A DNA stretch of 10,864 nucleotides from Syntrophorhabdaceae bacterium PtaU1.Bin034 (GTDB lineage: Bacteria; Desulfobacterota_G; Syntrophorhabdia; Syntrophorhabdales; WCHB1-27): positions 1 to 10,864 of the forward strand of contig MVRP01000139.1 of NCBI GenBank assembly GCA_002067405.1, written 5' to 3'. This document shows positions 754-10,864 of the stretch, piece after piece. Position 1 is the stretch's first letter. Each line of letters opens with the position of its first letter. The notes beneath the pieces were generated by a model, which saw only the letters and a program-made list of their open reading frames with translations, was not told the DNA's origin and ran no database searches. The translations under genes and the position numbers were made by a program.

Positions 754-2637
754 ATGTCTTCGATAACGTGGAAAGAGTTTTGGTCGGACAAACCGGTTCA
801 TCTGAAGGTGGCAACCGTCGTTGCGGTGGCCCTCGCCGTCTTCCAGATCTATACGGCACTCTTTGGCAGCCTCGATGCGATGATGCAGCGGTCGATACAT
901 CTCGGTCTCGGGCTTATCCTCGTTTTCATGACCCATACAACAGGCAAGGGCAAAGCATCCTGGCTTGACGCGATCCTCGCCCTGGCAGTTGTGGCGGCCA
1001 TAACCTATCTGCTGCTCAATTACGAATGGGTGACGGTCGACCGTTTCTCTCTCGTAACACCCCTGTTCTGGTACGAAAAGGTTCTGGGAATAATTGCGCT
1101 TATCCTTGTGCTGGAATCGGCCAGGAGGGTAGTAAGTCCGGGGCTGCTCTACGTGTCCGTAGCCTTTATTATTTACCCCTTCGTCGCCCCCTTTCTCCCC
1201 GGCCTTCTGCGCTCGGCGAAAACCGATTGGACCGCGATTCTGGACTACAACTACGTATCTACCGGGGGAATTTTCGGTATTCCTCTAGGAGTATCGGCCA
1301 CAGAGATCGGCCTTTTCATTATTTTTGGCGCCATTCTGATGCGAAGCGGCGGCTCGACCCTGATCAGTAATATCTCTTTCGTCTTCGCAGGGCGGGCAGT
1401 TGGCGGGCCGGCAAAAGTAGCAGTTGTAGGAAGCTCCCTTTTCGGCACTATCTCGGGGAGCGGTACCGCAAATGTTGCCACCATCGGGAGCGTTACCATC
1501 CCGATGATGAAAAAAGCAGGGTACAGCGCAAACTTTGCGGGTGCGGTCGAAGCGGTTTCCTCCACCGGAGGACAGATTATGCCTCCCGTCATGGGAGCAG
1601 CCGCTTTTGTCATGGCTGCTTTCAGCGGTATCCCTTACTCGACCATCCTCGGATATGCCATTTTTCCCGCAGTCCTTTACTATGTGAGCCTCTTTTTCAT
1701 CGTCGATCTTGAGGCGCGCCGCCTGAAGCTGCCCCTCATGAAGGCAGAGATCACGCTGAAGGAGACGCTGCGGGACTACGGCCACATGATCATCCCTATC
1801 GCCGTCCTCATCTACACACTTGTCAGCGGGTTCACCCCGAGACTGGCGGGCGGCTACGCCATCGTCGCCGCTCTTGTCGCCAGTCAGTTGAGAAAAACAA
1901 CGCGCCTGAGCATTCCTGCCATGCTTTCGGCTTTGATGGATGGGGCGAAAGGCATGCTCATTGTTGTGGTATCGTGTGCCACAGCGGGCATCATCGTAGG
2001 GACCGTTGATATGACGGGTGTGGGGCACAGGATGGGAAGCGCCTTCATCTATCTTGCAGGCGGAAACCTGACCATAGGTCTCATACTCGGCCTCGTCGTT
2101 GCCTTTATCCTGGGACTCGGCCTCCCGACGACGCCGGCTTACATTCTTCAGGTCGCAACCGTGATCCCGGCACTCATAAAGCTCGGCCTCCCGGTCCCGG
2201 CAGCCCATCTTTTCGCCTTCTACTACTCGTGTCTCGCGCTCATCACGCCGCCCGACGCCTCGGCTGCTTTTACCGCAGCGTCGATAGCGAAAGGGGACGG
2301 GTGGAAAACAGGCTGGATCGCGACGAGGATGGCCCTCGTCGCCTTTATTGTTCCGTTTATGTTTGCTTATGACCAGTCACTCCTCCTGATAGGCCCGGTG
2401 CCGAAGGTGATTCTCTCGGTAGTTACTGCCTTGATCGGCGTCTTCTGTCTCTGCATCGGCATCGAAGGATATTTTCGGAGAGTCCTTGCTGTGTGGGAAC
2501 GGGTTGTTGCCTTCATCGCTGCCCTGCTGTTGATCGCTCCGGGTAGCATTAACGCCGTAGTCGGCATGGCATTGTTTGGAATCCTGTTCTTTACCCAACG
2601 GAAAGGGAAGAGGCAGGTGGCGGTAGCCGGGAATTGA
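754..2637 (+). CDS. TRAP transporter fused permease (DctQ-DctM type), TAXI family partner
   Basis: This is an inner-membrane permease of 627 residues that would take up a solute, driven by an ion gradient, with the next gene's periplasmic receptor as partner. The N-terminal part (about residues 15-145) carries several hydrophobic helices corresponding to the small DctQ-like domain. The rest is the large DctM-like transport domain. Family signatures are plain: GGPAKVAVVGSSLFGTISGS from residue 217, STGGQIMPPVMG at 270-281, GLGLPTTPAY from 454 and TPPDAS from 498. The length and fusion are typical of TAXI-type TRAP systems, in which the two membrane subunits are one chain. Two to three further hydrophobic segments follow residue 530 and the chain ends in a basic tail. 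The start was chosen from the strong AGGAGGT and because the upstream residues do not look like the family. It is the first gene of the operon. The substrate cannot be read from the sequence, but the downstream enzymes suggest an aromatic or heteroaromatic acid. Confidence 0.93.
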   Translation: MSSITWKEFWSDKPVHLKVATVVAVALAVFQIYTALFGSLDAMMQRSIHLGLGLILVFMTHTTGKGKASWLDAILALAVVAAITYLLLNYEWVTVDRFSLVTPLFWYEKVLGIIALILVLESARRVVSPGLLYVSVAFIIYPFVAPFLPGLLRSAKTDWTAILDYNYVSTGGIFGIPLGVSATEIGLFIIFGAILMRSGGSTLISNISFVFAGRAVGGPAKVAVVGSSLFGTISGSGTANVATIGSVTIPMMKKAGYSANFAGAVEAVSSTGGQIMPPVMGAAAFVMAAFSGIPYSTILGYAIFPAVLYYVSLFFIVDLEARRLKLPLMKAEITLKETLRDYGHMIIPIAVLIYTLVSGFTPRLAGGYAIVAALVASQLRKTTRLSIPAMLSALMDGAKGMLIVVVSCATAGIIVGTVDMTGVGHRMGSAFIYLAGGNLTIGLILGLVVAFILGLGLPTTPAYILQVATVIPALIKLGLPVPAAHLFAFYYSCLALITPPDASAAFTAASIAKGDGWKTGWIATRMALVAFIVPFMFAYDQSLLLIGPVPKVILSVVTALIGVFCLCIGIEGYFRRVLAVWERVVAFIAALLLIAPGSINAVVGMALFGILFFTQRKGKRQVAVAGN

Positions 2638-2668
2638 AAGGATGATAAATCAACTAAGAACAGAAAAT

Positions 2669-2676
2669 AAGGAGGT
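2669..2676 (+). promoter_or_regulatory. Ribosome binding site deciding the receptor start
   Basis: AAGGAGGT precedes tandem ATG codons at 2681 and 2684. It excludes the in-frame ATG at 2642, whose extra 13 residues would also spoil the signal peptide. Which of the two tandem ATGs is used cannot be decided by eye. Confidence 0.8.
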
Positions 2677-2680
2677 AACA

Positions 2681-3631
2681 ATGATGAAGGGAAAATCGTT
2701 TTTGATCGGCCTCGCGCTCGTCGCGCTGTCGGCCTTTTCGGCTCACGCCTACGATCTTAGATGGGGCACCGCACCGGTCGGCGGCCTGTGGGGTGTGCTG
2801 GGTAATGCCATGATCGAGGATGTGCTCAAGGCAAACCCGAACATCAAGGGCTCTACCGTCCCGATCGGCGGTGCGGCAAACATTCTCGGCATAGCGGAAA
2901 ACAAATTGAACATCGCCTTCTCTTTTTCCGATGTGGCGTATGACGCATGGGAAGGCAACGAGTTCTTCAAGGCTAAGGGGAAGATCCGGAACATTCGGGC
3001 CCTTGCATGCCTCTTTCCGGAGCCCACGCAGTTCGCCGTCTATGCTGATTCGGGCATCACGAGCATTGCCCAGTTGAAGGGGAAGAAGGTGACCCCGGGA
3101 CCGAAAGGGTCGGCCATCGAACTGGTGACGAGGCGGATACTTCAGGAATACGGTCTGAGCTATAAAGACATGAAGATCCAGTTGATCGGTTTCGAGGACG
3201 GAGCACAATTGATGATCGACAATCATCTCGACGCGGTCCTGTACGGCGCAATGGTTTACCCCGCGCCCACCCTCATGAATATCAACTCGCAACGCCAGAT
3301 ACGCCTCCTTTCTCTGTCTGATGAGGTTATGGCCAATTTGGTGAAGAAGTACAAGGGGCTGATCCCTTATACGCTGCCGGCGCAATCCTACAAGGGGATC
3401 ACTTCTCCGACAAAAGGTGTCGCGTCCATGGTCAATCTTGTGGTGGACCAGGCTATGCCCGATGATGTGGCGTATGCCATCACAAAAATAATAGCTCAGA
3501 ATTTCGAGCGTTACAAGGGCCTTGTCAAGCCCATGGCACTGGCAAAGTTGAAGGAGATGCCCAATGACGCCGGTATACCTTTCCATCCGGGGGCGCTGAA
3601 GTATTATAAAGAACGAGGCTGGATAAAGTAG
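2681..3631 (+). CDS. TAXI family TRAP transporter solute receptor (periplasmic binding protein)
   Basis: This is a 316-residue substrate-binding protein. A classic Sec signal peptide is visible: a basic start (MMKGK), a hydrophobic core (about residues 6-20) and an A-x-A site (AHA, 21-23) before YDLRWGT. The mature part of about 293 residues fits the TAXI group: GTAPVGGLWGVLG near the mature N terminus, a GGAANILGI segment, SFSDVAYDAWEG, and a lobe beginning with SIAQLKGKKVTPGPKGSA. There is no lipobox cysteine, so it should be soluble in the periplasm. The gene lies 43 nt after the fused permease, the usual pairing. Known TAXI receptors bind organic acids or amino acids. Its neighbours here point to a ring carboxylate, but that is inference. 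A 38-nt gap without a terminator separates it from the molybdenum enzyme genes, suggesting co-transcription. Confidence 0.92.
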   Translation: MMKGKSFLIGLALVALSAFSAHAYDLRWGTAPVGGLWGVLGNAMIEDVLKANPNIKGSTVPIGGAANILGIAENKLNIAFSFSDVAYDAWEGNEFFKAKGKIRNIRALACLFPEPTQFAVYADSGITSIAQLKGKKVTPGPKGSAIELVTRRILQEYGLSYKDMKIQLIGFEDGAQLMIDNHLDAVLYGAMVYPAPTLMNINSQRQIRLLSLSDEVMANLVKKYKGLIPYTLPAQSYKGITSPTKGVASMVNLVVDQAMPDDVAYAITKIIAQNFERYKGLVKPMALAKLKEMPNDAGIPFHPGALKYYKERGWIK

Positions 3632-3669
3632 ATGTTGTTTTTATTATACCGGCCGACCGAGGGTAGAGC

Positions 3670-4140
3670 TTGAAAACAGCCATTTCTTTCGTCCTGAATG
3701 GAAATCAGCACACGCATATGGTGGAGGCGACCGAGATACTGGTCGATTTTATCAGGGATAGCCTTGGCTTGACCGGAACAAAGGTCGGATGCGGTATCGG
3801 TGAGTGTGGTGCATGCACGGTGCTGGTGGACGGAGAGCCGGTGAATGCATGCCTCGTACTGGCCGTGACCATTGACGGTAAGACTTTGATGACCGTGGAA
3901 GGACTGGCAGACGGAAACGGGAGCGCGATCCAGAAGGCTTTTGTTGAAGCCGGGGCCGTGCAGTGCGGTTATTGCACGCCCGGCATGCTCCTTTCCGCAA
4001 AAGCGCTGCTCGACAAGAACCCGGTGCCGACCGAAGAAGAGATCAGAAAAGCCATTTCTGGTAATCTGTGCCGTTGCACGGGCTATGAAAAGATAATACG
4101 GGCCGTGGAGATAGCGGCCCGTTCACGGGAAGACCGATAA
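3670..4140 (+). CDS. [2Fe-2S] subunit of a xanthine dehydrogenase-family molybdenum enzyme
   Basis: This 156-residue electron-transfer subunit carries two [2Fe-2S] clusters. The plant-ferredoxin-type cluster is ligated by Cys41, Cys46, Cys49 and Cys61 (motif CGIGECGAC then C). The second, all-helical cluster is ligated by Cys99, Cys102, Cys134 and Cys136 (C-x2-C-x31-C-x-C). All eight ligands are present and the length is normal for the CoxS/HcrC/NdhS-type small subunits. It would pass electrons between the molybdenum site in the next gene product and the FAD subunit encoded further down (8077). The start is a TTG, supported by a GAGGG at 3659-3663 six nt upstream and by the family's N-terminal beta strand (ISFVLNG) beginning at once. 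The next ATG (3718) would delete that strand. The rare start codon may lower its translation. The gene ends 4 nt before the catalytic subunit. Confidence 0.93.
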   Translation: MKTAISFVLNGNQHTHMVEATEILVDFIRDSLGLTGTKVGCGIGECGACTVLVDGEPVNACLVLAVTIDGKTLMTVEGLADGNGSAIQKAFVEAGAVQCGYCTPGMLLSAKALLDKNPVPTEEEIRKAISGNLCRCTGYEKIIRAVEIAARSREDR

Positions 4141-4144
4141 CTCC

Positions 4145-6403
4145 ATGGAAAAAACTGTAATCGGTCAGGGCAAACTGAAGCCCGACGCCTGGGAGAAGGT
4201 GACCGGAGAGGCCCGGTACGCGGGCGATGTGAAGGCCGAGGGGCAGCTTTATGCGAAGGCGGTGAGAAGTCCTTTTGCCCATGCACGGGTGAAAGGAATC
4301 GATGCTGCGAAGGCCCTTTCGCTGCCTGGTGTCAAGGTGGTGCTGACGGCGGCCGATATTCCGGGCCAGAATCGTATCGGTATGACCGGCGCCAAAGATC
4401 AACGCGTCTTTGCGGACGACAAAGTTCGTTTCCTCGGAGAGGCGGTTGCCATCGTTGCCGCGACATCGGAGACCCTCGCCGAGCAGGCGGCACAGATGGT
4501 CGGGGTAACGTACGAAGAACTCGAAGTGGTGGAAAGCCCCGAACAGGCCCTTCAGGCAGGAGCGCCGCAGATCGGTGACAAAGGGAACCTGTGCGTCTTC
4601 AAGAGAGTCGTGCGGGGCGACGTCGAGGCGGGCCTTCGAGAGGCGGATGTGATCGTCGAGGAGGAGTATTTCCTCGGCCCGGTTGAGCACGCATACATCG
4701 AGCCGGAGGCGGTGTTCGTGAAGCCTAAAGGTGACGCGCTTCTCGTGTGGAGCGCGACAAAGAGCGTTCACCTCGACCGGACCGAGATCGCCCGCGTCCT
4801 GAACTGGAAGGCGGACCGCATCCAGGTGGTGGCGCCGACCATCGGCGGAAGCTTTGGGGGAAAGTCCGACCTGGCCCTCGTCACCATGGCGGCCCTCGTC
4901 GCTGCTGCGACACAGCGGCCGGTAGCCATGCGATACACAAGGGAAGAAAGTTTCCAGGTAACCACTAAACGGCACGGGTGCACAATACGCTATACTCACG
5001 GCGCAACGAAAGAAGGCGCGCTCACCGCGGTAAAGATGGACCTGATGGCCGACGCGGGCGCCTACGTCGACTATACCAGCGTTGTCCTCCCCCGTATGGC
5101 GATCTTCGGTGCAGGGCCGTATCGGGTCCCGCACGTCATGCTGGAGGTACGCGGCGTCCACACCAACAATCCCGTGTCAGGCGCAATGCGTGGTTTCGGC
5201 CAGCCCCAGGTCGCCTTCGCCTGTGAGCGGCAAATGGACAGGCTGGCTGAGGTGCTCGGCATGGACCCATGGGAATTTCGCATGAAGAACGCCCTCCAGG
5301 AAGGGGACCTGTCCGCAACAGGGCAGAAGCTCCACGGCGTCACCATGCGACCCCTTCTCGAGAAGGCCCGGGAGTTGATGGCTGGTGCGGAACCGGCAAA
5401 GCCGCCCAGGTCCTATGAGCAGGAGGGCTGGGGTATGGCTTGTTTTTATTTCGGAAACGGCAGAACTAGCCTGCCGAACCCCGGCGTGGCCCATGCCCGG
5501 GTGACCGGGGACGGCCTGGTGGAGTTTCTGGTGGGATCGCCCGATATCGGTCAGGGATCAGACCTTCTCCTTGCCCAGATCGCTGCCGGCACCCTTGGGT
5601 TTCCTCTCGATGCGGTAAAAGTCACTACGGCCGACACCCGCTGTACGCCGGACTCGGGGACTACTTCGGGCACGAGGCTGACTGTCATCGTCGGGAAATC
5701 TGTTCAGTTCGCCGCAGACAAGCTGCGCACGGTGATTATGGAAAAAGCGCGAAACCTCTACCGTGTGGGCGACGGGCCCCTGGAGCTTGCTTATGACGGG
5801 AAAGAGATTACCGTAAAAGGAGCAGATGCCGTTATTCCGCTCCGCGAGCTTTTCATAAAGGCCGACGGCACTCTCAACGCGAGCGCCACGTACGACCCAC
5901 CCGTGGTTCCCCAGGACGAGAACGGCCAGGGAACCCCCTACGCCTTTTATACCTATGGCGTGCAGTGCGCGAAAGTGCGGGTGAACCCGTACACCGGCAA
6001 AGTCAACGTGGAGCGGATGATTGCCGTCTATGACGCGGGAACGATCATCAATCCCGTGCTCTTTACCGCCCAGTTGGAAGGCGCTGTCTGCATGGGTATC
6101 GGCTACGCCCTGTGCGAAGAGGTGCAACTCAGCCGGGGCAAAGTGCTCAACCCTAATTTTGACACCTATATCATGCCTACCAGTATGGATATGCCCCCGG
6201 TGGATATTGCCATGCTGGAAGTGCCCGATCAGGAAGGACCATTCGGGGCGAAAGGTATCGGTGAGCCGGCCGTAGTCCCTACCGCCGCCGCCATTGCGAA
6301 CGCCGTGGCGAGGGCCACAGGAGCCCGTTTCTCATGCCTGCCCCTGAGCCTTGAAGAGGTGACGGAGGTCCTGACCAGGAAAGAGGAGGAAGAGATACTA
6401 TGA
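4145..6403 (+). CDS. Molybdopterin-binding catalytic subunit, xanthine dehydrogenase family
   Basis: This is a 752-residue cytoplasmic subunit that should hold the molybdenum cofactor (probably the cytosine dinucleotide form, as in bacterial three-subunit members). It would hydroxylate a ring or acyl carbon with water, or run the reductive variant. It starts with the alpha/beta hammerhead domain (about residues 18-125, TGEARYAGD then SPFAHARV). The active-site loops follow in order: GGSFGGK at 234-240, AMRGFGQPQ with Arg349, GQGSD at 469-473, and the catalytic glutamate in GIGEP (Glu707), which is conserved in true hydroxylases. The AMRGFG loop lacks the cysteine of aerobic CO dehydrogenase (VAYRCSFR type), so that function is excluded. 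The length is typical. The ribosome binding site is weak (GGGAAGA about 12 nt upstream), and coupling to the [2Fe-2S] gene is likely. Its stop overlaps the next start (ATGA). Substrate class unknown: heteroaromatic acids, aryl-CoA or aldehydes are all possible. Confidence 0.93.
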   Translation: MEKTVIGQGKLKPDAWEKVTGEARYAGDVKAEGQLYAKAVRSPFAHARVKGIDAAKALSLPGVKVVLTAADIPGQNRIGMTGAKDQRVFADDKVRFLGEAVAIVAATSETLAEQAAQMVGVTYEELEVVESPEQALQAGAPQIGDKGNLCVFKRVVRGDVEAGLREADVIVEEEYFLGPVEHAYIEPEAVFVKPKGDALLVWSATKSVHLDRTEIARVLNWKADRIQVVAPTIGGSFGGKSDLALVTMAALVAAATQRPVAMRYTREESFQVTTKRHGCTIRYTHGATKEGALTAVKMDLMADAGAYVDYTSVVLPRMAIFGAGPYRVPHVMLEVRGVHTNNPVSGAMRGFGQPQVAFACERQMDRLAEVLGMDPWEFRMKNALQEGDLSATGQKLHGVTMRPLLEKARELMAGAEPAKPPRSYEQEGWGMACFYFGNGRTSLPNPGVAHARVTGDGLVEFLVGSPDIGQGSDLLLAQIAAGTLGFPLDAVKVTTADTRCTPDSGTTSGTRLTVIVGKSVQFAADKLRTVIMEKARNLYRVGDGPLELAYDGKEITVKGADAVIPLRELFIKADGTLNASATYDPPVVPQDENGQGTPYAFYTYGVQCAKVRVNPYTGKVNVERMIAVYDAGTIINPVLFTAQLEGAVCMGIGYALCEEVQLSRGKVLNPNFDTYIMPTSMDMPPVDIAMLEVPDQEGPFGAKGIGEPAVVPTAAAIANAVARATGARFSCLPLSLEEVTEVLTRKEEEEIL

Positions 6404-6648
6404 AGGTGCTTTTTGTTACATGTCCATACTGCTCGAAAAAATGGTACGCGGAAACGATCGTTTTTGAAAACAGGCTGCCCCTTCATTGTCCCGGGTGTGA
6501 TGCCTATCTCGACTATGATGTCTACTCTCAGCAAATGGCGCCTGTCACTGCATCGGCGCTGACACGGATCAGGAAGCCGCTGAACGAAAAGACCGTACCC
6601 GAGATACTCTATATACCAAAAAAATCCCGTGCCGAGTCGGGAAATTAA
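6400..6648 (+). CDS. Small zinc-ribbon protein, possible accessory subunit of the UbiD decarboxylase
   Basis: This 82-residue protein has two CxxC knuckles, CPYC at 8-11 and CPGC at 30-33 (C-x2-C-x18-C-x2-C), the layout of a zinc ribbon. The remaining 49 residues form a hydrophilic tail with prolines and basic residues (TRIRKPLNEKTVPEIL). It overlaps the molybdenum subunit gene by 4 nt, has a strong GAGGAGG about 9 nt upstream, and lies 25 nt before the UbiD gene, so it belongs to the operon. Small zinc-ribbon proteins of about 75-80 residues (BsdD/VdcD/ShdD) are known partners of UbiD-type hydroxyarylic acid decarboxylases. This protein matches in size, metal motif, tail character and position, but not in close sequence as far as I can recall. 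I infer an accessory role to the decarboxylase. A role in metal or cluster handling for the molybdenum enzyme, or in regulation, cannot be excluded. Confidence 0.75.
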   Translation: MKVLFVTCPYCSKKWYAETIVFENRLPLHCPGCDAYLDYDVYSQQMAPVTASALTRIRKPLNEKTVPEILYIPKKSRAESGN

Positions 6649-6673
6649 GCGCATTGCACGTGAAGGGGGCTAT

Positions 6674-8080
6674 ATGAGCAAGAATCTGCGCGAATGGATC
6701 GCACAAATGGAAGAATGGCTGCCGGAGGAGTTCCTCCGGACGCACGAACTCGTCAATCCGGGCAGGTATGAATGTTCGGCGCTTCTTGAATATTTCGAGA
6801 GGCAATCGAAGTTTCCAACGGTCTTTTTTGAGAACGTGGTCGACAACGAAGGGCACGCGTCATCTTTCAGGCTCCTCATGAACGCCTTTGCCACCACCCC
6901 CAAGATTGCCGCTGCCCTGGGCCTGCAAGGGGCCAACCGGCGCGAGGTGATGGAGCAGTACAACAGGGGCCAGGCGTCGCCGCGCGATCCCGTGAGGCTC
7001 GGTAAGGCAGAGGCTGCCGTAAAGGAAATCGTCTGGACCGGCGAAGAGGTTAATCTGAAAAAGCTTCCTGTGCCTAGAATAAACGAGATGGACGGAGGTG
7101 CGTACCTTTCGCCTATCATTGTCAGCCGCCACCCGCAGACAGGGCGGTACAACATCTCGTGGAACCGGTGCATGGTGATCGACGAGAGGCATCTGGGCAT
7201 CTGGATGTCGCCCCGCCATCTTTGGAGTTATTTCATGACCGCCGAAGAGTTGGGCCGGTCGTTGCCCATTGCCGTGGTCCTGGGGCATCATCCGTCCTTT
7301 TTCCTTGTCGGTGCCGGCCTCACGAAAATGGATCAGGACGAGTACCGCGTCGCCGGCGGTGTTATGGGCGAAAGCGTGCGTCTTGTCGATTCGGAGATAT
7401 TCGGCGAGGACCTTCTGGTACCGGCCGACGCGGAGATCATCCTTGAGGGCGAGATCGTGGCCGACAAGCGGACTATAGAAGGACCCTTCGGCGAATTCAC
7501 CGGTTACGAAGGGCCACAGCGTCTCTCCTGGCTGGTAGAGGTCAAGGCCGTAACGGCACGGAAGGACGGGATTATTGTCGGCGTCTTCGGCGCCCATCAG
7601 GATAACCTGAATGCCCATTACCCTATCCAGGCGGATATTTTCGCCAATCTGAGGGTAACCATGCCGAACGTGGTGGACTTGAGCTGGGTCGACGCGGGTG
7701 CCCCTTTGAGCATGGTGATCGCCATGCAAAAGAAGTCCGAGGGGGAACCGTTGCGGGCGGCGATGAACGCCTTCGCGCAGAGTAATTTTCTCAAGCATAT
7801 CACCGTGGTCGATGATGACATAGACCCCGGCAATCTCCGCCAGGTAGGATGGGCCGTCGCAACAAGGGTCCAGGCGGACAGGGACGTCAACATACTTAAA
7901 GGCATGCAGGGACAGGTGCTCGACCCCTCTCTCGAGCACGAGATCAGAGGCGCGGGCATGGTGATAGACGCCACGCGGCCTCTCGATCGTCCGTACTCCA
8001 TAAAGGCGACGCCACCCCGGGAAATAGTGGAAAAGGTTGATCCGGACAAGTATTTTTGGGGGGATAAAAAGAACAGATGA
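6674..8080 (+). CDS. UbiD family (de)carboxylase, prenylated-FMN dependent
   Basis: This 468-residue cytoplasmic enzyme belongs to the family that removes (or in some cases adds) a carboxylate on aromatic, heteroaromatic or alpha,beta-unsaturated acids, using prenylated FMN made by UbiX. The catalytic Arg-Glu-Glu set is visible: Arg165 in SWNRCMV, and Glu269 and Glu274 in EGPFGEFTG. The spacing agrees with Arg173/Glu277/Glu282 of fungal Fdc1. Other family stretches include LGHHPSFFLVGAG and AHQDNLNAHYP. The length is normal (E. coli UbiD is about 497). The start at 6674 is favoured by AAGGGGG 4 nt upstream. A GTG 45 nt earlier is in frame but overlaps the previous gene and lacks a good site. 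The gene sits between the molybdenum and FAD subunits of the hydroxylase and overlaps the latter by 4 nt, so both enzymes should act on one pathway. No UbiX is in the window; the cofactor must come from elsewhere. Ubiquinone synthesis is unlikely in this setting. Confidence 0.93.
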   Translation: MSKNLREWIAQMEEWLPEEFLRTHELVNPGRYECSALLEYFERQSKFPTVFFENVVDNEGHASSFRLLMNAFATTPKIAAALGLQGANRREVMEQYNRGQASPRDPVRLGKAEAAVKEIVWTGEEVNLKKLPVPRINEMDGGAYLSPIIVSRHPQTGRYNISWNRCMVIDERHLGIWMSPRHLWSYFMTAEELGRSLPIAVVLGHHPSFFLVGAGLTKMDQDEYRVAGGVMGESVRLVDSEIFGEDLLVPADAEIILEGEIVADKRTIEGPFGEFTGYEGPQRLSWLVEVKAVTARKDGIIVGVFGAHQDNLNAHYPIQADIFANLRVTMPNVVDLSWVDAGAPLSMVIAMQKKSEGEPLRAAMNAFAQSNFLKHITVVDDDIDPGNLRQVGWAVATRVQADRDVNILKGMQGQVLDPSLEHEIRGAGMVIDATRPLDRPYSIKATPPREIVEKVDPDKYFWGDKKNR

Positions 8081-8940
8081 TCCCCGAAGCAATCAGGTAC
8101 GTTCGTCCTGATACAATAGAGGCAGCGGTTGAGGTCTTCGAGCAATCGAGGGGGAAAGGCACTTTCCTTGCCGGAGGAACAGACCTTGTTCTGGAGATGA
8201 AAAGAGGGTCGGCGAAACCCGATGTCCTCATCGATGTCGCTCGCCTCAGGGAATTGTCGGTGCTGGAGGAGAAAAACGGGTACTTGTACCTCGGTGCGGC
8301 ATTATCTTTCAGCAGGATTGCCTCTTCCGCGCTGGTTCGACGATTTGCGCCCGCCCTCGCGGCTGCAGCGGAAGACATAGGGTCTCCGCAGATCAGGGCA
8401 CGGGGCACCATGGGCGGCAACATCGCAACAGGGTCCCCGGCCGGGGACTCCCTCCCTGCCCTTGTTGCTCACGATGCCGAGATAGTGACCGAGGGCGTCA
8501 ATGGTGCGGCGATATCTTCCCTCGAATCATTCCTCGGAAAGAAAAGTGCGGGAGGCAACCGGGGGGTGCTTATCCGGGAGGTTCGTATACCGGCCCTGCC
8601 CGGCGGACAGGTGAAGGGGACCTTCGTCAAGCTCGGCAGGCGTAACGCCCTTGCCATAGCGCGCATCAGCGCGGCTCTCGTCATAAAAGGAGAGGCAGAG
8701 GGTGCCATGAAAAAGATTTCCCTTGTCCTTGGTGCGGTGGGACGTCAACCGCTGCGCGTTCCTCTCCTCGAACCGTCAGGATCGGACTTCAATGCGCTTG
8801 CGGCTGCGGCGGCGGAACTGGCCGAACAGGCGGTAGCAAAAAGCATACCCGGCAGACCGACGGCGCCGTACAAAATGAGGGCGGTGAAAGGGGTCGTGCT
8901 CGAGGCTTTCGAGAGGGTGAGAAATGGCGGATACGGTTGA
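8077..8940 (+). CDS. FAD-binding subunit of the xanthine dehydrogenase-family enzyme
   Basis: This 287-residue flavoprotein of the CoxM/CutM type is the third subunit of the molybdenum enzyme. It would exchange electrons between its FAD and the [2Fe-2S] subunit, and then with a soluble acceptor. FAD pyrophosphate-binding motifs are AGGTDL at 32-37 and TMGGNIATGSPAGDS from 111. The C-terminal domain of the family follows (FVKLGRRNALAIARI, then GAVGRQPLRVP). The chain contains no cysteine at all, so it cannot carry the extra [4Fe-4S] cluster that marks the FAD subunit of 4-hydroxybenzoyl-CoA reductase. The enzyme is therefore more likely an oxidising hydroxylase. It starts within the UbiD stop (ATGA overlap), a sign of coupled translation. 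Its separation from the other two subunits by two genes is unusual but occurs in catabolic clusters. Confidence 0.92.
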   Translation: MIPEAIRYVRPDTIEAAVEVFEQSRGKGTFLAGGTDLVLEMKRGSAKPDVLIDVARLRELSVLEEKNGYLYLGAALSFSRIASSALVRRFAPALAAAAEDIGSPQIRARGTMGGNIATGSPAGDSLPALVAHDAEIVTEGVNGAAISSLESFLGKKSAGGNRGVLIREVRIPALPGGQVKGTFVKLGRRNALAIARISAALVIKGEAEGAMKKISLVLGAVGRQPLRVPLLEPSGSDFNALAAAAAELAEQAVAKSIPGRPTAPYKMRAVKGVVLEAFERVRNGGYG

Positions 8941-9865
8941 GATCACCGTCATCGTAGAGAATTACATCGATATCTTCCTTCCTGCTACGGATGTCGCTAT
9001 ATACCCGGTGCCGGGTAAGGGCTCGCGTCTCATTGGCGAACAAGGGTTGTCCCTGTGGGTGGACGTCCGGAGGGGGGGTGAGAGGACAAGGATCATTTAT
9101 GATTTCGGGCGAAGCAGCAGGACATTCTTTCATAATCTGCGGCTCCTCGATCTCGACGTGACCCAGGCGGACTATCTTGTTCTAAGCCATGCCCACATTG
9201 ATCATTTCGGTGCGCTCGGCCGGGTGCTGTCTGGAACCGGCACGGGGTGCACCCTGGTTATGCATGATGCGGCAGTGGGCAAAAAGAAATATATCAGGCT
9301 CAAGGACGGGAGCTGCATCGGCCCGTGGGAGATCAAGCCTGCCCTTGTAAATTCATGGACCGGGAAGACGGTCTTTAATACCGGTGCCTTTCCGATCTCC
9401 CCTGACGTCGTGCTGTCGGGGAAGATAGAAAGACGGACCGATTTCGAGCCCGAAATGGCGGCTGCGTGCGTGAAGAGCGGACCGGGGATCATACACGATA
9501 CGATTCCTGAAGACCAGGCGCTCTATATCGACATCGAGGGGAGAGGCATTCTCGTCATCACCGGGTGCTGCCACGCAGGTCTCGTGAACACGATCGAGAA
9601 GGCGCTGGAATTATTCCCCGGAAGGGGAATATACGGGATAGTCGGCGGCTTCCACCTGAACGGCGCTGACGAGCGGCAAATGGAAGAAACCATGGCACGC
9701 CTTTCTCGGCTGGCCTTTTCGTATATCGCACCCCTCCACTGCACGGGCTACTACGCGTCGAGAAAGCTCATGGAGCGATTTCCGGCAGAGTGGATAGCGG
9801 GAACGGTCGGCATGAGAATGAAATTCCACGGTGTGGCGGGCAGCACAGGCGCGCCGACAACGTAA
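8924..9865 (+). CDS. Metallo-beta-lactamase-fold hydrolase, COG1237 type
   Basis: This 313-residue cytoplasmic metallo-hydrolase has no signal peptide. The metal-binding signature is HAHIDH (His89, His91, Asp93, His94). It is followed by His217 in TGCCHAG, and by GGFHL (His244) and LHCTG (His272). The order of ITGC-C/S-HAG, GGFHL and HCTG is characteristic of the COG1237 group, which includes methanopterin-pathway RFA-P synthase-like proteins and uncharacterised hydrolases. The usual FDTG strand motif reads YDFG here. The start is supported by GAGAGGG 6 nt upstream. The gene overlaps the FAD subunit gene by 17 nt, so it is translationally linked to the catabolic enzymes and ends the operon. 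A lactonase, esterase or thioesterase step on the pathway product would fit, but the family does not fix the substrate. Its stop is 2 bp from the stop of the convergent hydG. Confidence 0.88.
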   Translation: MADTVEITVIVENYIDIFLPATDVAIYPVPGKGSRLIGEQGLSLWVDVRRGGERTRIIYDFGRSSRTFFHNLRLLDLDVTQADYLVLSHAHIDHFGALGRVLSGTGTGCTLVMHDAAVGKKKYIRLKDGSCIGPWEIKPALVNSWTGKTVFNTGAFPISPDVVLSGKIERRTDFEPEMAAACVKSGPGIIHDTIPEDQALYIDIEGRGILVITGCCHAGLVNTIEKALELFPGRGIYGIVGGFHLNGADERQMEETMARLSRLAFSYIAPLHCTGYYASRKLMERFPAEWIAGTVGMRMKFHGVAGSTGAPTT

Positions 9866-9867
9866 CC

Positions 9868-10864
9868 CTAGAAATAAAGGTCCCGCGCACCATGATCGAT
9901 CTCGTCCAGGGCGTTGGTCATTTTCCCCTTGAGCGACTTCTTCTTTACATCCGACAAAAGCTTCTCGATCAGCCGAAGTCCCTTCTGTTTTGTCTCGGGT
10001 GATGCAAAATCGAGCAGATACTCCTTGAAAGTAAATACCGCGTTGGGCATGCAAAACTCTTTTATGAGACCGGGTTTGGCCAGATCCATGAAGTCGTTGC
10101 CGACCCTTCCCTTTCTGTAGCAGCCGGTACAGAACGACGGGATGTATTCCTTGTCGATGATGGTCGATATCACCTCTTCGAGGCTCCGGTGATCTCCAAG
10201 CGAGAACTGGCTTCCGGAATCCTGGTCCGCCTTTGAGTAAGCGCCCGGATTCGTGCGGGAACCGGCCGATATCTGGCTCACGCCGTAGTTGAACAGTTCG
10301 GTCCGCATCTCCTCACTCTCCCTGGTGCTCAGTATAATTCCCGTGTAGGGCAGGGCGATCCTGATGATGGCGATGATTTTCTTGAAATCGTCATCGCTCA
10401 CCGCATGGGGGATGTGCTTTGTCAGCGGCGCGTTGTCCGCAGGCTCGATCCGGGGGAAGCTTATCGTGTGAGGACCGCAACCGAAGACCGCTTCGAGATG
10501 ATGGGCGTGCTCCATGAGCGCAAGGATCTCGAAGCGATAATCGGCGAGGCCGAAAAGCACACCCAGACCGACATCGCTGATCCCAGCCTCCATGGCCCTG
10601 TCGAAGACCGTTACCCGGTAGTCGTAATCGGCCTTGGGCGTTCCGGCAGGATGGTACTCCTTGTACAGGACGGGATCGTAGGTCTCCTGAAAACAGACAT
10701 ACGTCCCGATCTTTTCGTCCTTCAGCCTTCTGAAGTCTGTTACGGGCATGGGGGCCAGCTCGACATTTATCCTGCGAACATAATTCTTCCCTTCCCGCAC
10801 GCCGTAAGTCGTACGGATAGCCTCGCACATATAGTCCGTACCGTTCCTGTTTGATTCCCCGCAA
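9868..10864 (-). CDS. hydG: [FeFe]-hydrogenase H-cluster maturase HydG, N-terminus cut by window edge
   Basis: The 331 visible residues are the C-terminal two thirds of HydG (family about 470). HydG is the radical SAM tyrosine lyase that makes the CO and CN- ligands of the [FeFe]-hydrogenase cluster and builds the Fe(CO)2CN synthon. The decisive feature is the C-terminal auxiliary-cluster motif C-x2-C-x22-C (CTGCYRKGR through KEFC, codons from 10131 down to 10051). ThiH, the closest relative, lacks it. Other HydG stretches are GTYVCFQETY, HPAGTPKADYDYR, DVGLGVLFGL and GDHRSLEEVI. The radical SAM C-x3-C-x2-C motif should lie beyond the right edge. The frame stays open to the edge, so the ATG at 10830 is internal. 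The gene is convergent with the operon and probably belongs to a separate hydrogenase maturation or hydrogenase locus. It marks the organism as an anaerobe that makes or uses H2. Confidence 0.93.
   Translation of the reverse strand, partial: CGESNRNGTDYMCEAIRTTYGVREGKNYVRRINVELAPMPVTDFRRLKDEKIGTYVCFQETYDPVLYKEYHPAGTPKADYDYRVTVFDRAMEAGISDVGLGVLFGLADYRFEILALMEHAHHLEAVFGCGPHTISFPRIEPADNAPLTKHIPHAVSDDDFKKIIAIIRIALPYTGIILSTRESEEMRTELFNYGVSQISAGSRTNPGAYSKADQDSGSQFSLGDHRSLEEVISTIIDKEYIPSFCTGCYRKGRVGNDFMDLAKPGLIKEFCMPNAVFTFKEYLLDFASPETKQKGLRLIEKLLSDVKKKSLKGKMTNALDEIDHGARDLYF

Follow-up and report, generated by a model that had tools for sequence, protein, structure and literature searches.

Several described systems resemble parts of the locus considered here. 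Nicotinate fermentation by Eubacterium barkeri is encoded by a cluster of the composition Ndh-Hnr-Ena-Hgd-Hmd-Mgm-Mii; HmfABC, a furoyl-CoA dehydrogenase, is the partner of the 2,5-furandicarboxylate decarboxylase HmfF; VdcCD-type enzymes interconvert phenol and 4-hydroxybenzoate; and the aerobe Alcaligenes UK21 has a quinolinate dehydrogenase in addition to a 6-hydroxyquinolinate decarboxylase. The locus itself lies in a 10,864-nucleotide (nt) stretch of the genome of Syntrophorhabdaceae bacterium PtaU1.Bin034 (contig MVRP01000139.1), hereafter the window, where positions 754–9865 hold eight plus-strand genes. They encode a TAXI-TRAP transporter, a three-subunit molybdenum hydroxylase, a UbiD-family (de)carboxylase dependent on prenylated flavin mononucleotide (prFMN), a zinc-ribbon protein and a metallo-beta-lactamase-fold (MBL) hydrolase. 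From the sequences and the gene neighbourhoods of relatives, we favour, by a modest balance of probability, the reading that this operon, or cassette, is an anaerobic peripheral module that would turn a pyridine acid with an extra carboxylate into 6-hydroxynicotinate, feeding the pathway of 6-hydroxynicotinate reductase (Hnr).

The cassette is like the E. barkeri cluster in that the relative G530 joins it in one operon with an enamidase (Ena) and further genes of the route, and in that its molybdenum subunit is nearest the Ndh type. It differs in adding UbiD, the zinc ribbon, MBL and TAXI-TRAP, and whereas E. barkeri Ndh (3hrd) is split into large and medium chains, the cassette molybdenum subunit is a single chain in a clade of its own. 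With VdcCD, the hydroxyarylic acid decarboxylase of Sedimentibacter and Bacillus, the cassette shares a UbiD encoded beside a small zinc ribbon with two CxxC motifs, but its UbiD reaches 249 bits with the VdcC model NF041204, whose cut-off is 650, and falls outside the VdcC clade, and its zinc ribbon has no match to VdcD among the sequence and fold matches described below. HmfF and HmfABC likewise combine a UbiD with a three-subunit molybdenum hydroxylase, but the cassette UbiD is in another clade, CoA steps are absent from the window, and the genomic context differs. The pyrrole-2-carboxylate decarboxylase HudA (PA0254) has an Asn at its inferred heterocycle-nitrogen-binding position, as do most UbiDs of the cassette clade, but HudA is dimeric according to the available text of PMC7976604, and it matches the cassette UbiD with 93 bits. 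The 6-hydroxyquinolinate decarboxylase of UK21 is part of a system with the same reaction types, on quinolinate, and in the accessible part of PMC6644310 it is described as having some similarity to UbiD-family phthalate decarboxylases; its product is, however, reported there as 6-hydroxypicolinate.

In the scheme that we propose, the TAXI-TRAP transporter would import a pyridine acid with an additional carboxylate relative to nicotinate. Our first candidate substrate is quinolinate (pyridine-2,3-dicarboxylate), chosen as a common metabolite in which the carboxylate of nicotinate is already in place. The molybdenum hydroxylase, a relative of nicotinate dehydrogenase but not the same enzyme, would put a water-derived hydroxyl group next to the ring nitrogen. 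UbiD, activated by the zinc ribbon and using prFMN from a UbiX whose gene lies next to the operon or elsewhere, would then strip off the surplus carboxylate, leaving 6-hydroxynicotinate. Reduction and opening of the ring by Hnr and enamidase would follow; according to PMC9304392, 6-hydroxynicotinic acid is partly reduced to tetrahydro-6-oxonicotinic acid, whose ring enamidase opens to 2-formylglutarate. The scheme is the simplest that uses every gene other than that of the MBL hydrolase, ends at Hnr and explains a second molybdenum enzyme; the MBL hydrolase belongs to the set and stands outside it. A preliminary description, made from the window sequence alone, had proposed one catabolic unit with a (hetero)aromatic carboxylate as substrate, and the gene set and its context in relatives bear out the unit and make a heteroaromatic carboxylate the likeliest substrate. 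The 6-hydroxynicotinate destination was missed at that stage because only relatives, and not the window, show the genes concerned.

In G530 the cassette has the order MoCo-TRAP-TAXI-MBL-ZnR-UbiD (MoCo, molybdenum subunit; ZnR, zinc ribbon) and is followed on the same strand by genes for an amidohydrolase, a 502-amino-acid (aa) Fe-S protein, UPF0280, PF06684, a HIBADH-like dehydrogenase, a serine-dehydratase-like protein, a B12-binding mutase-like protein, PrpF and GlmL. The amidohydrolase matches E. barkeri enamidase (2vun) with 543 bits, the next match reaching 43; the best PDB match of the dehydrogenase is 2-hydroxymethylglutarate dehydrogenase (3cky, 302 bits; next 245), and that of the PrpF protein is 3-methylitaconate isomerase (3g7k, 521 bits; next 286). 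The Fe-S protein is probably Hnr, judging from its place beside the enamidase and its 4Fe-4S domain, a label that comes from context and has no solved structure behind it. Together we take these downstream genes to be a nicotinate fermentation set of the E. barkeri type.

Other relatives show the two sets side by side. Desulfovirgula (G012; L107/L108) has enamidase and Hnr directly before the cassette molybdenum gene, and the cassette is followed there by a split Ndh-type pair. The nearest named relative, Syntrophorhabdus PtaB.Bin047 (UbiD 70% identical), has two contigs, C217 and C88, that share a 75-nt end and when joined give the order MoCo-ZnR-UbiD-FAD-MBL-UbiX-DctPQM-FeS-FAD-MoCo-Ena-Hnr-UPF0280-PF06684. 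Cassette and Hnr set are on one contig in G013 and about 14 kb apart in G003. Hnr and Ena are absent from the window and stand beside the cassette in G530, G012 and G001; the genome to which the window belongs would presumably encode Hnr elsewhere.

Near Hnr, a UPF0280 (ApbE-like) gene is found in 13 of the 14 Hnr loci (L096, L107, L117 and L119–L129), the exception being L107, and a gene for a PF06684 "AA_synth" protein in 10, or 11 if L108 beside L107 is counted (not in L124, L126 or L127). Both families seem to belong to anaerobic nicotinate breakdown. In Pelotomaculum UBA10960 (L129 and L013), the nicotinate genes are 82–100% identical to those of G530 in the matched pieces, and enamidase, Hnr, UPF0280, Hgd and the cassette UbiD are all fragmented there, through assembly errors or decay.

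The UbiD gene (6674–8080, plus strand) encodes 468 aa with the domains PF01977 (171 bits), PF20696 and PF20695. In a tree of 165 rows, built by a quick method with four characterised enzymes added, the window UbiD falls into a clade of 60 rows (59 distinct) with a support of 100, and none of the four lies inside it. The catalytic and prFMN-cofactor residues N160, R165, H182, E223, E269 and E274 are present in the window UbiD and in all 60 clade rows; we take these to be the equivalents of Fdc1 N168, R173, H191, E233, E277 and E282. Residues typical of the clade, counted in its 60 rows against the 105 others, are W163 (59 versus 0), H315 (60 versus 0), N371 (60 versus 0), I318 (59 versus 2) and R361 (60 versus 8). 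Position 311, which aligns with HmfF H296, is Asn in 49 and His in 11 clade rows, compared with 23 Asn and 25 His among the others. The available text of PMC7976604 equates this HmfF residue (there numbered H297) with HudA N318, which is within hydrogen-bond distance of a bound imidazole nitrogen, and an Asn or His at position 311 weakly suggests a substrate with a heterocyclic nitrogen.

HmfF is the top PDB match of the window UbiD (201.5 bits), and the combination of a UbiD with a three-subunit molybdenum enzyme is the same kind of set as in the furandicarboxylate/furoate (Hmf) route, the parallel drawn in the preliminary description. We nevertheless give almost no credence to a variant of that route. 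The UbiD does not group with HmfF; where HmfF has R304, an Arg that presumably binds substrate, 59 of the 60 clade rows have Ile and one has Leu; the relatives carry nicotinate genes; and none of the nine window proteins scanned is a CoA ligase or thioesterase. The furan route was rejected on this combination of tree, active-site position and context. As for the earlier remark that neither UbiX nor a CoA ligase is in view, it holds for the window; in Desulfovirgula (L014), however, the operon includes a gene for a UbiX-like flavoprotein (PF02441), which has a 53% identical homologue in Syntrophorhabdus (L130). The expectation that no characterised pathway would prove close is upheld among those compared, as neither the UbiD clade, which lacks the four characterised enzymes, nor the molybdenum subunit, which has a clade of its own, joins one.

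The molybdenum hydroxylase has the three subunits of the XDH family, all encoded on the plus strand: a [2Fe-2S] subunit with a TTG start (3670–4140; PF01799, PF00111), a molybdopterin large subunit of 752 aa (4145–6403; PF02738, PF20256, PF01315), nicotinate-dehydrogenase-like by its PDB matches (1rm6, 3hrd) and by the tree, and an FAD subunit of 287 aa (8077–8940; PF00941). The large subunit has E707 in a GIGEP motif, presumably the catalytic Glu. In a tree of at most the N-terminal 430 residues, which included no HmfA sequence, the cassette subunits form a clade of 16 rows (14 distinct; support 99/95) beside the E. barkeri Ndh type, and that of the window is not inside the clade of E. barkeri NdhL. 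The single-chain subunits encoded next to Hnr (in G001, G006, G007, G009, G013, G014, G111 and G330) belong to the larger group that joins the cassette clade with the NdhL type, and not to the cassette clade; the same is true of the split pairs in G012, after the cassette, and in G004, which lacks Hnr. The Hnr-adjacent subunit of G014 pairs with E. barkeri NdhL (100/100). In most Hnr genomes the cassette enzyme thus coexists with an Ndh-like one, an argument that the two act on different substrates.

These placements bear on a different order of events, in which UbiD would act first and make nicotinate from a pyridine dicarboxylate taken up by the cell, the cassette molybdenum enzyme being simply another nicotinate dehydrogenase. 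Such an order fits the position of the cassette subunit near the Ndh type, and G530 is a genome in which it could apply: all 12 of its other molybdenum subunits are outside the larger group, and the role of nicotinate dehydrogenase could therefore fall to the cassette enzyme. (One of the 12, L131_9403, groups with L127_7179 and may be an unrecognised nicotinate hydroxylase.) Against this, eight Hnr genomes have a second, Hnr-adjacent subunit that goes with NdhL, by a weak node, and G012 has its split Ndh-type pair; all nine keep the cassette subunit beside UbiD and the zinc ribbon, which points to a different substrate for it. We consider decarboxylation before hydroxylation rather unlikely, and prefer the module in which hydroxylation would come first. 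Purine or pyrimidine catabolism was also considered, prompted by high scores against XDH models and by PucR and an amidohydrolase in Moorella; it was rejected, as the molybdenum subunit is under the cut-off of all 13 families listed (for example 518 versus 784 for pucD) and the operon-linked genes in relatives are nicotinate genes.

The zinc-ribbon gene (6400–6648, plus strand) encodes 82 aa with CxxC motifs at 8/11 and 30/33. C8, C11, C30 and C33 are invariant in all 14 aligned sequences, and the C-terminal tail is conserved. VdcD, as described in the available text of PMC8379154, is a two-CxxC zinc ribbon that activates VdcC and has a proline-rich tail at the subunit interface. VdcD is absent from the 17 sequence matches of the cassette protein up to E 10, and from the best 50 of its 194 fold matches (model pLDDT, the predicted local distance difference test, 71; none at E 0.001). 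With no match of either kind among these, the likeness to VdcD is kept as an analogy, by which the protein would most likely be a VdcD-like activating small subunit of the UbiD decarboxylase.

The direction of the UbiD reaction could also be the reverse, with pyridine or 2-hydroxypyridine hydroxylated and then carboxylated by UbiD para to the hydroxyl group, again yielding 6-hydroxynicotinate. Carboxylation of a hydroxyarene in the para position fits the chemistry and would yield a product that Hnr could use directly. The pairing of UbiD with a zinc ribbon is reminiscent of VdcCD as described in PMC8379154, but the UbiD stands apart from VdcC in both score and clade, and the conserved TAXI-TRAP transporter suggests an organic anion, not neutral pyridine, so that we judge carboxylation to be clearly unlikely. 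If it were true, the cassette would carry pyridine to 6-hydroxynicotinate independently of oxygen by CO2 fixation onto the ring, a nitrogen counterpart of anaerobic phenol carboxylation. Its UbiD would then be, to our knowledge, the first prFMN enzyme to act on a pyridine ring with the gene in hand.

To examine conservation of the set, an alignment of 41 UbiDs was used to scan GTDB species genomes, and the best 80 of 508 relative-encoding stretches, which represent 79 distinct loci, were taken. Fifteen loci belong to the clade of the window UbiD (14 by tree, L013 by identity), and the 64 others, which carry the nearest other UbiDs, serve as the control; the zinc ribbon was counted within 1 kb of UbiD and the other genes within 10 kb, and several loci are short contigs, so that some absent genes reflect truncation. 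A zinc ribbon stands beside UbiD in 14/15 clade loci versus 1/64 others. A molybdenum subunit of at least 38% identity is present in 11 clade loci and in no other, and of at least 25% identity in 12 versus 11; the FAD and FeS subunits are found in eight versus six and seven versus six, respectively. For the transporter, TRAP permeases of at least 55% identity occur at seven clade loci versus none (10 versus three at 30% or more) and TAXI proteins of at least 50% at eight versus none, while the MBL gene is found at nine versus none. Mapping of the eight proteins shows the set recurring, whole or partial and with shuffled order, in Thermodesulfobacteriota, Nitrospirota, Bacillota and Actinomycetota, with carriers that include Syntrophorhabdus, other Deltaproteobacteria, Nitrospirota, Desulfovirgula, Moorella, Pelotomaculum, a Clostridia metagenome-assembled genome (MAG) and a Thermoleophilia genome. 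Since UbiDs of this one clade have these genes as neighbours in several phyla, the eight-gene operon is more than a chance arrangement; gene content is thus conserved beyond this genome, but gene order, which had been named with it in the preliminary description, is not. The trait is patchy: the UbiD was found at E 1e-140 in 8/395 genomes of the phylum sample and in 2/113 of the class of Desulfovirgula, and at E 1e-100 in 3/46 genomes of the class of Syntrophorhabdus, two of these being only 40% identical.

A second pairing of a UbiD (38–41%) with a molybdenum hydroxylase (molybdenum subunit 30–36%) was seen in the Deltaproteobacteria MAG loci L016, L021, L029, L048 and L051, with no zinc ribbon or TRAP genes within these loci. 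In the Thermoleophilia genome (L003, 12300–14389), genes for a B12-binding protein and a split MTTB-family methyltransferase lie directly 3' of the cassette.

Of the 19 genomes with a clade UbiD, 13 have an Hnr homologue. The UbiD and Hnr searches were taken, from the genome handles, to draw on the same genomes. In the phylum sample, Hnr homologues occur in 5/8 UbiD-positive and 54/387 other genomes (Fisher p=0.0025), and in the class of Desulfovirgula (G012) in 2/2 versus 8/111 (Fisher p=0.007), where one of the eight (G011, Pelotomaculum) does have a broken-up cassette; these tests ignore kinship, and in the phylum searches three or four first-look candidates per genome were scored. The MBL gene was seen in 13/19 genomes with a clade UbiD (that of G002 is cut by a contig end), and Hnr in 12 of these 13 versus one of the six without a seen MBL (p=0.003).

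The linkage with Hnr also bears on the suggestion that the substrate of the cassette is another N-heterocycle or (hetero)aromatic acid, with the nicotinate genes nearby as a sign of the general clustering of heterocycle islands. Moorella stamsii (L102–L104) has a large N-heterocycle island with several molybdenum hydroxylases, amidohydrolases and a split Ndh-type pair and with no Hnr homologue; the neighbours of its cassette are genes for an M20 hydrolase, a class I fumarase, PucR and a lyase of the fumarase/aspartase family. This island would suit another substrate, as would the several other molybdenum hydroxylases nearby in the Thermoleophilia genome (L105, L128). The unbroken operons that join the cassette directly to enamidase and Hnr in G530 and G012, the adjacency of these genes in Syntrophorhabdus and the association of MBL with Hnr speak, however, against mere clustering, and for the cassette as a whole we think another heterocycle distinctly unlikely. 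The genomes G002, G004 and G005, with an M20 gene in the cassette and no Hnr, probably use another route, and Moorella-type loci with M20 and no Hnr may put the core to use in a different end route.

A number of observations weigh against the 6-hydroxynicotinate module. The neglect of kinship and the limited number of candidates scored in the tests above are two of them, and the link to the nicotinate genes runs through relatives, not through the window's own genome. In 8 of the 13 Hnr-positive genomes the cassette and Hnr sets are on separate contigs or far apart, the distance in G330 being about 1.5 Mb. Six of the 19 genomes (G002, G004, G005, G008, G093 and G273) have no Hnr homologue and may follow a different course; the first three of these have an M20 hydrolase inside the cassette, and in G093 and G273 no molybdenum subunit is seen beside UbiD. 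In the molybdenum tree, the node of the larger group that joins the cassette clade to the NdhL type has a support of only 83/71, the subunit beside the clade UbiD of G008 (L009) falls outside the cassette clade, and the Hnr-adjacent subunits L105_11927 (G003) and L127_7179 (G012, contig C88) fall outside the larger group. The B12 mutase is found in just three of the 19 genomes, so that the steps after enamidase differ, and a complete Mgm branch in all carriers was rejected. As to chemistry, UbiDs favour electron-rich (nucleophilic) ring carbons, and none of the proposed steps needs a hydrolase, leaving MBL unexplained. Finally, the one 6-hydroxyquinolinate decarboxylase reported, in PMC6644310, takes off the other carboxylate, so that its product is 6-hydroxypicolinate and not 6-hydroxynicotinate.

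Should the module nevertheless prove correct, it would supply candidate genes for oxygen-free breakdown of pyridine dicarboxylates. Among titles and the beginnings of abstracts, in a search that left most subscription journals uncovered, we found no paper giving genes for this process. The operon would also provide a clade of prFMN decarboxylases with a new kind of heteroaromatic substrate and a new partner subunit of UbiD, and the combination of clade UbiD, zinc ribbon and MBL would serve as a marker for the trait in syntrophs, sulfate reducers and thermophilic Bacillota.

The remaining cassette genes lie at its two ends. The transporter consists of a fused TRAP permease of the DctQM type (754–2637, plus strand; 627 aa; TIGR02123 597 bits, cut-off 321; PF06808) and a TAXI-family TRAP solute-binding protein (2684–3631, plus strand; 315 aa; TIGR02122 232 bits, cut-off 84), both of which exceed the curated cut-offs. 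The MBL hydrolase (8924–9865, plus strand; 313 aa; PF00753) has PDB relatives 7dck, 2p4z, 3h3e and, weakly, 8u00, which carry no stated function. The gene calls agree with the preliminary description on eight co-directional genes with three overlapping junctions, and no other gene intervenes. With the assigned starts, the gaps are, in order, 46, 38, 4, −4, 25, −4 and −17 nt; the earlier figure of 43 nt or less holds if the TAXI protein starts at the in-frame Met three bases upstream (2681), one of two alternatives (2642 or 2681), and becomes 46 nt or less with the assigned start.

Upstream of the TRAP gene, positions 1–753 are a long stretch with no convincing open reading frame or promoter apart from the end of a gene at 2–109, whose 35 visible residues have no Pfam match. 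On the other flank, outside the cassette, lies hydG ([FeFe]-hydrogenase maturase; 9868–10863, minus strand; TIGR03955 398 bits, cut-off 312), whose 5' part is beyond the window. Its product has matches of 82–89% identity in 6/46 genomes of the class of Syntrophorhabdus PtaB.Bin047, a closeness in keeping with the anaerobic host proposed earlier. In four compared loci of that class, hydG is 86–89% identical, the nucleotide similarity to the window (81–82%) stops at the end of hydG, and the left end of the window has no match. Since the similarity ends with hydG and the left end is unmatched, the cassette would seem to be an accessory neighbour, in a host that resembles Syntrophorhabdus.

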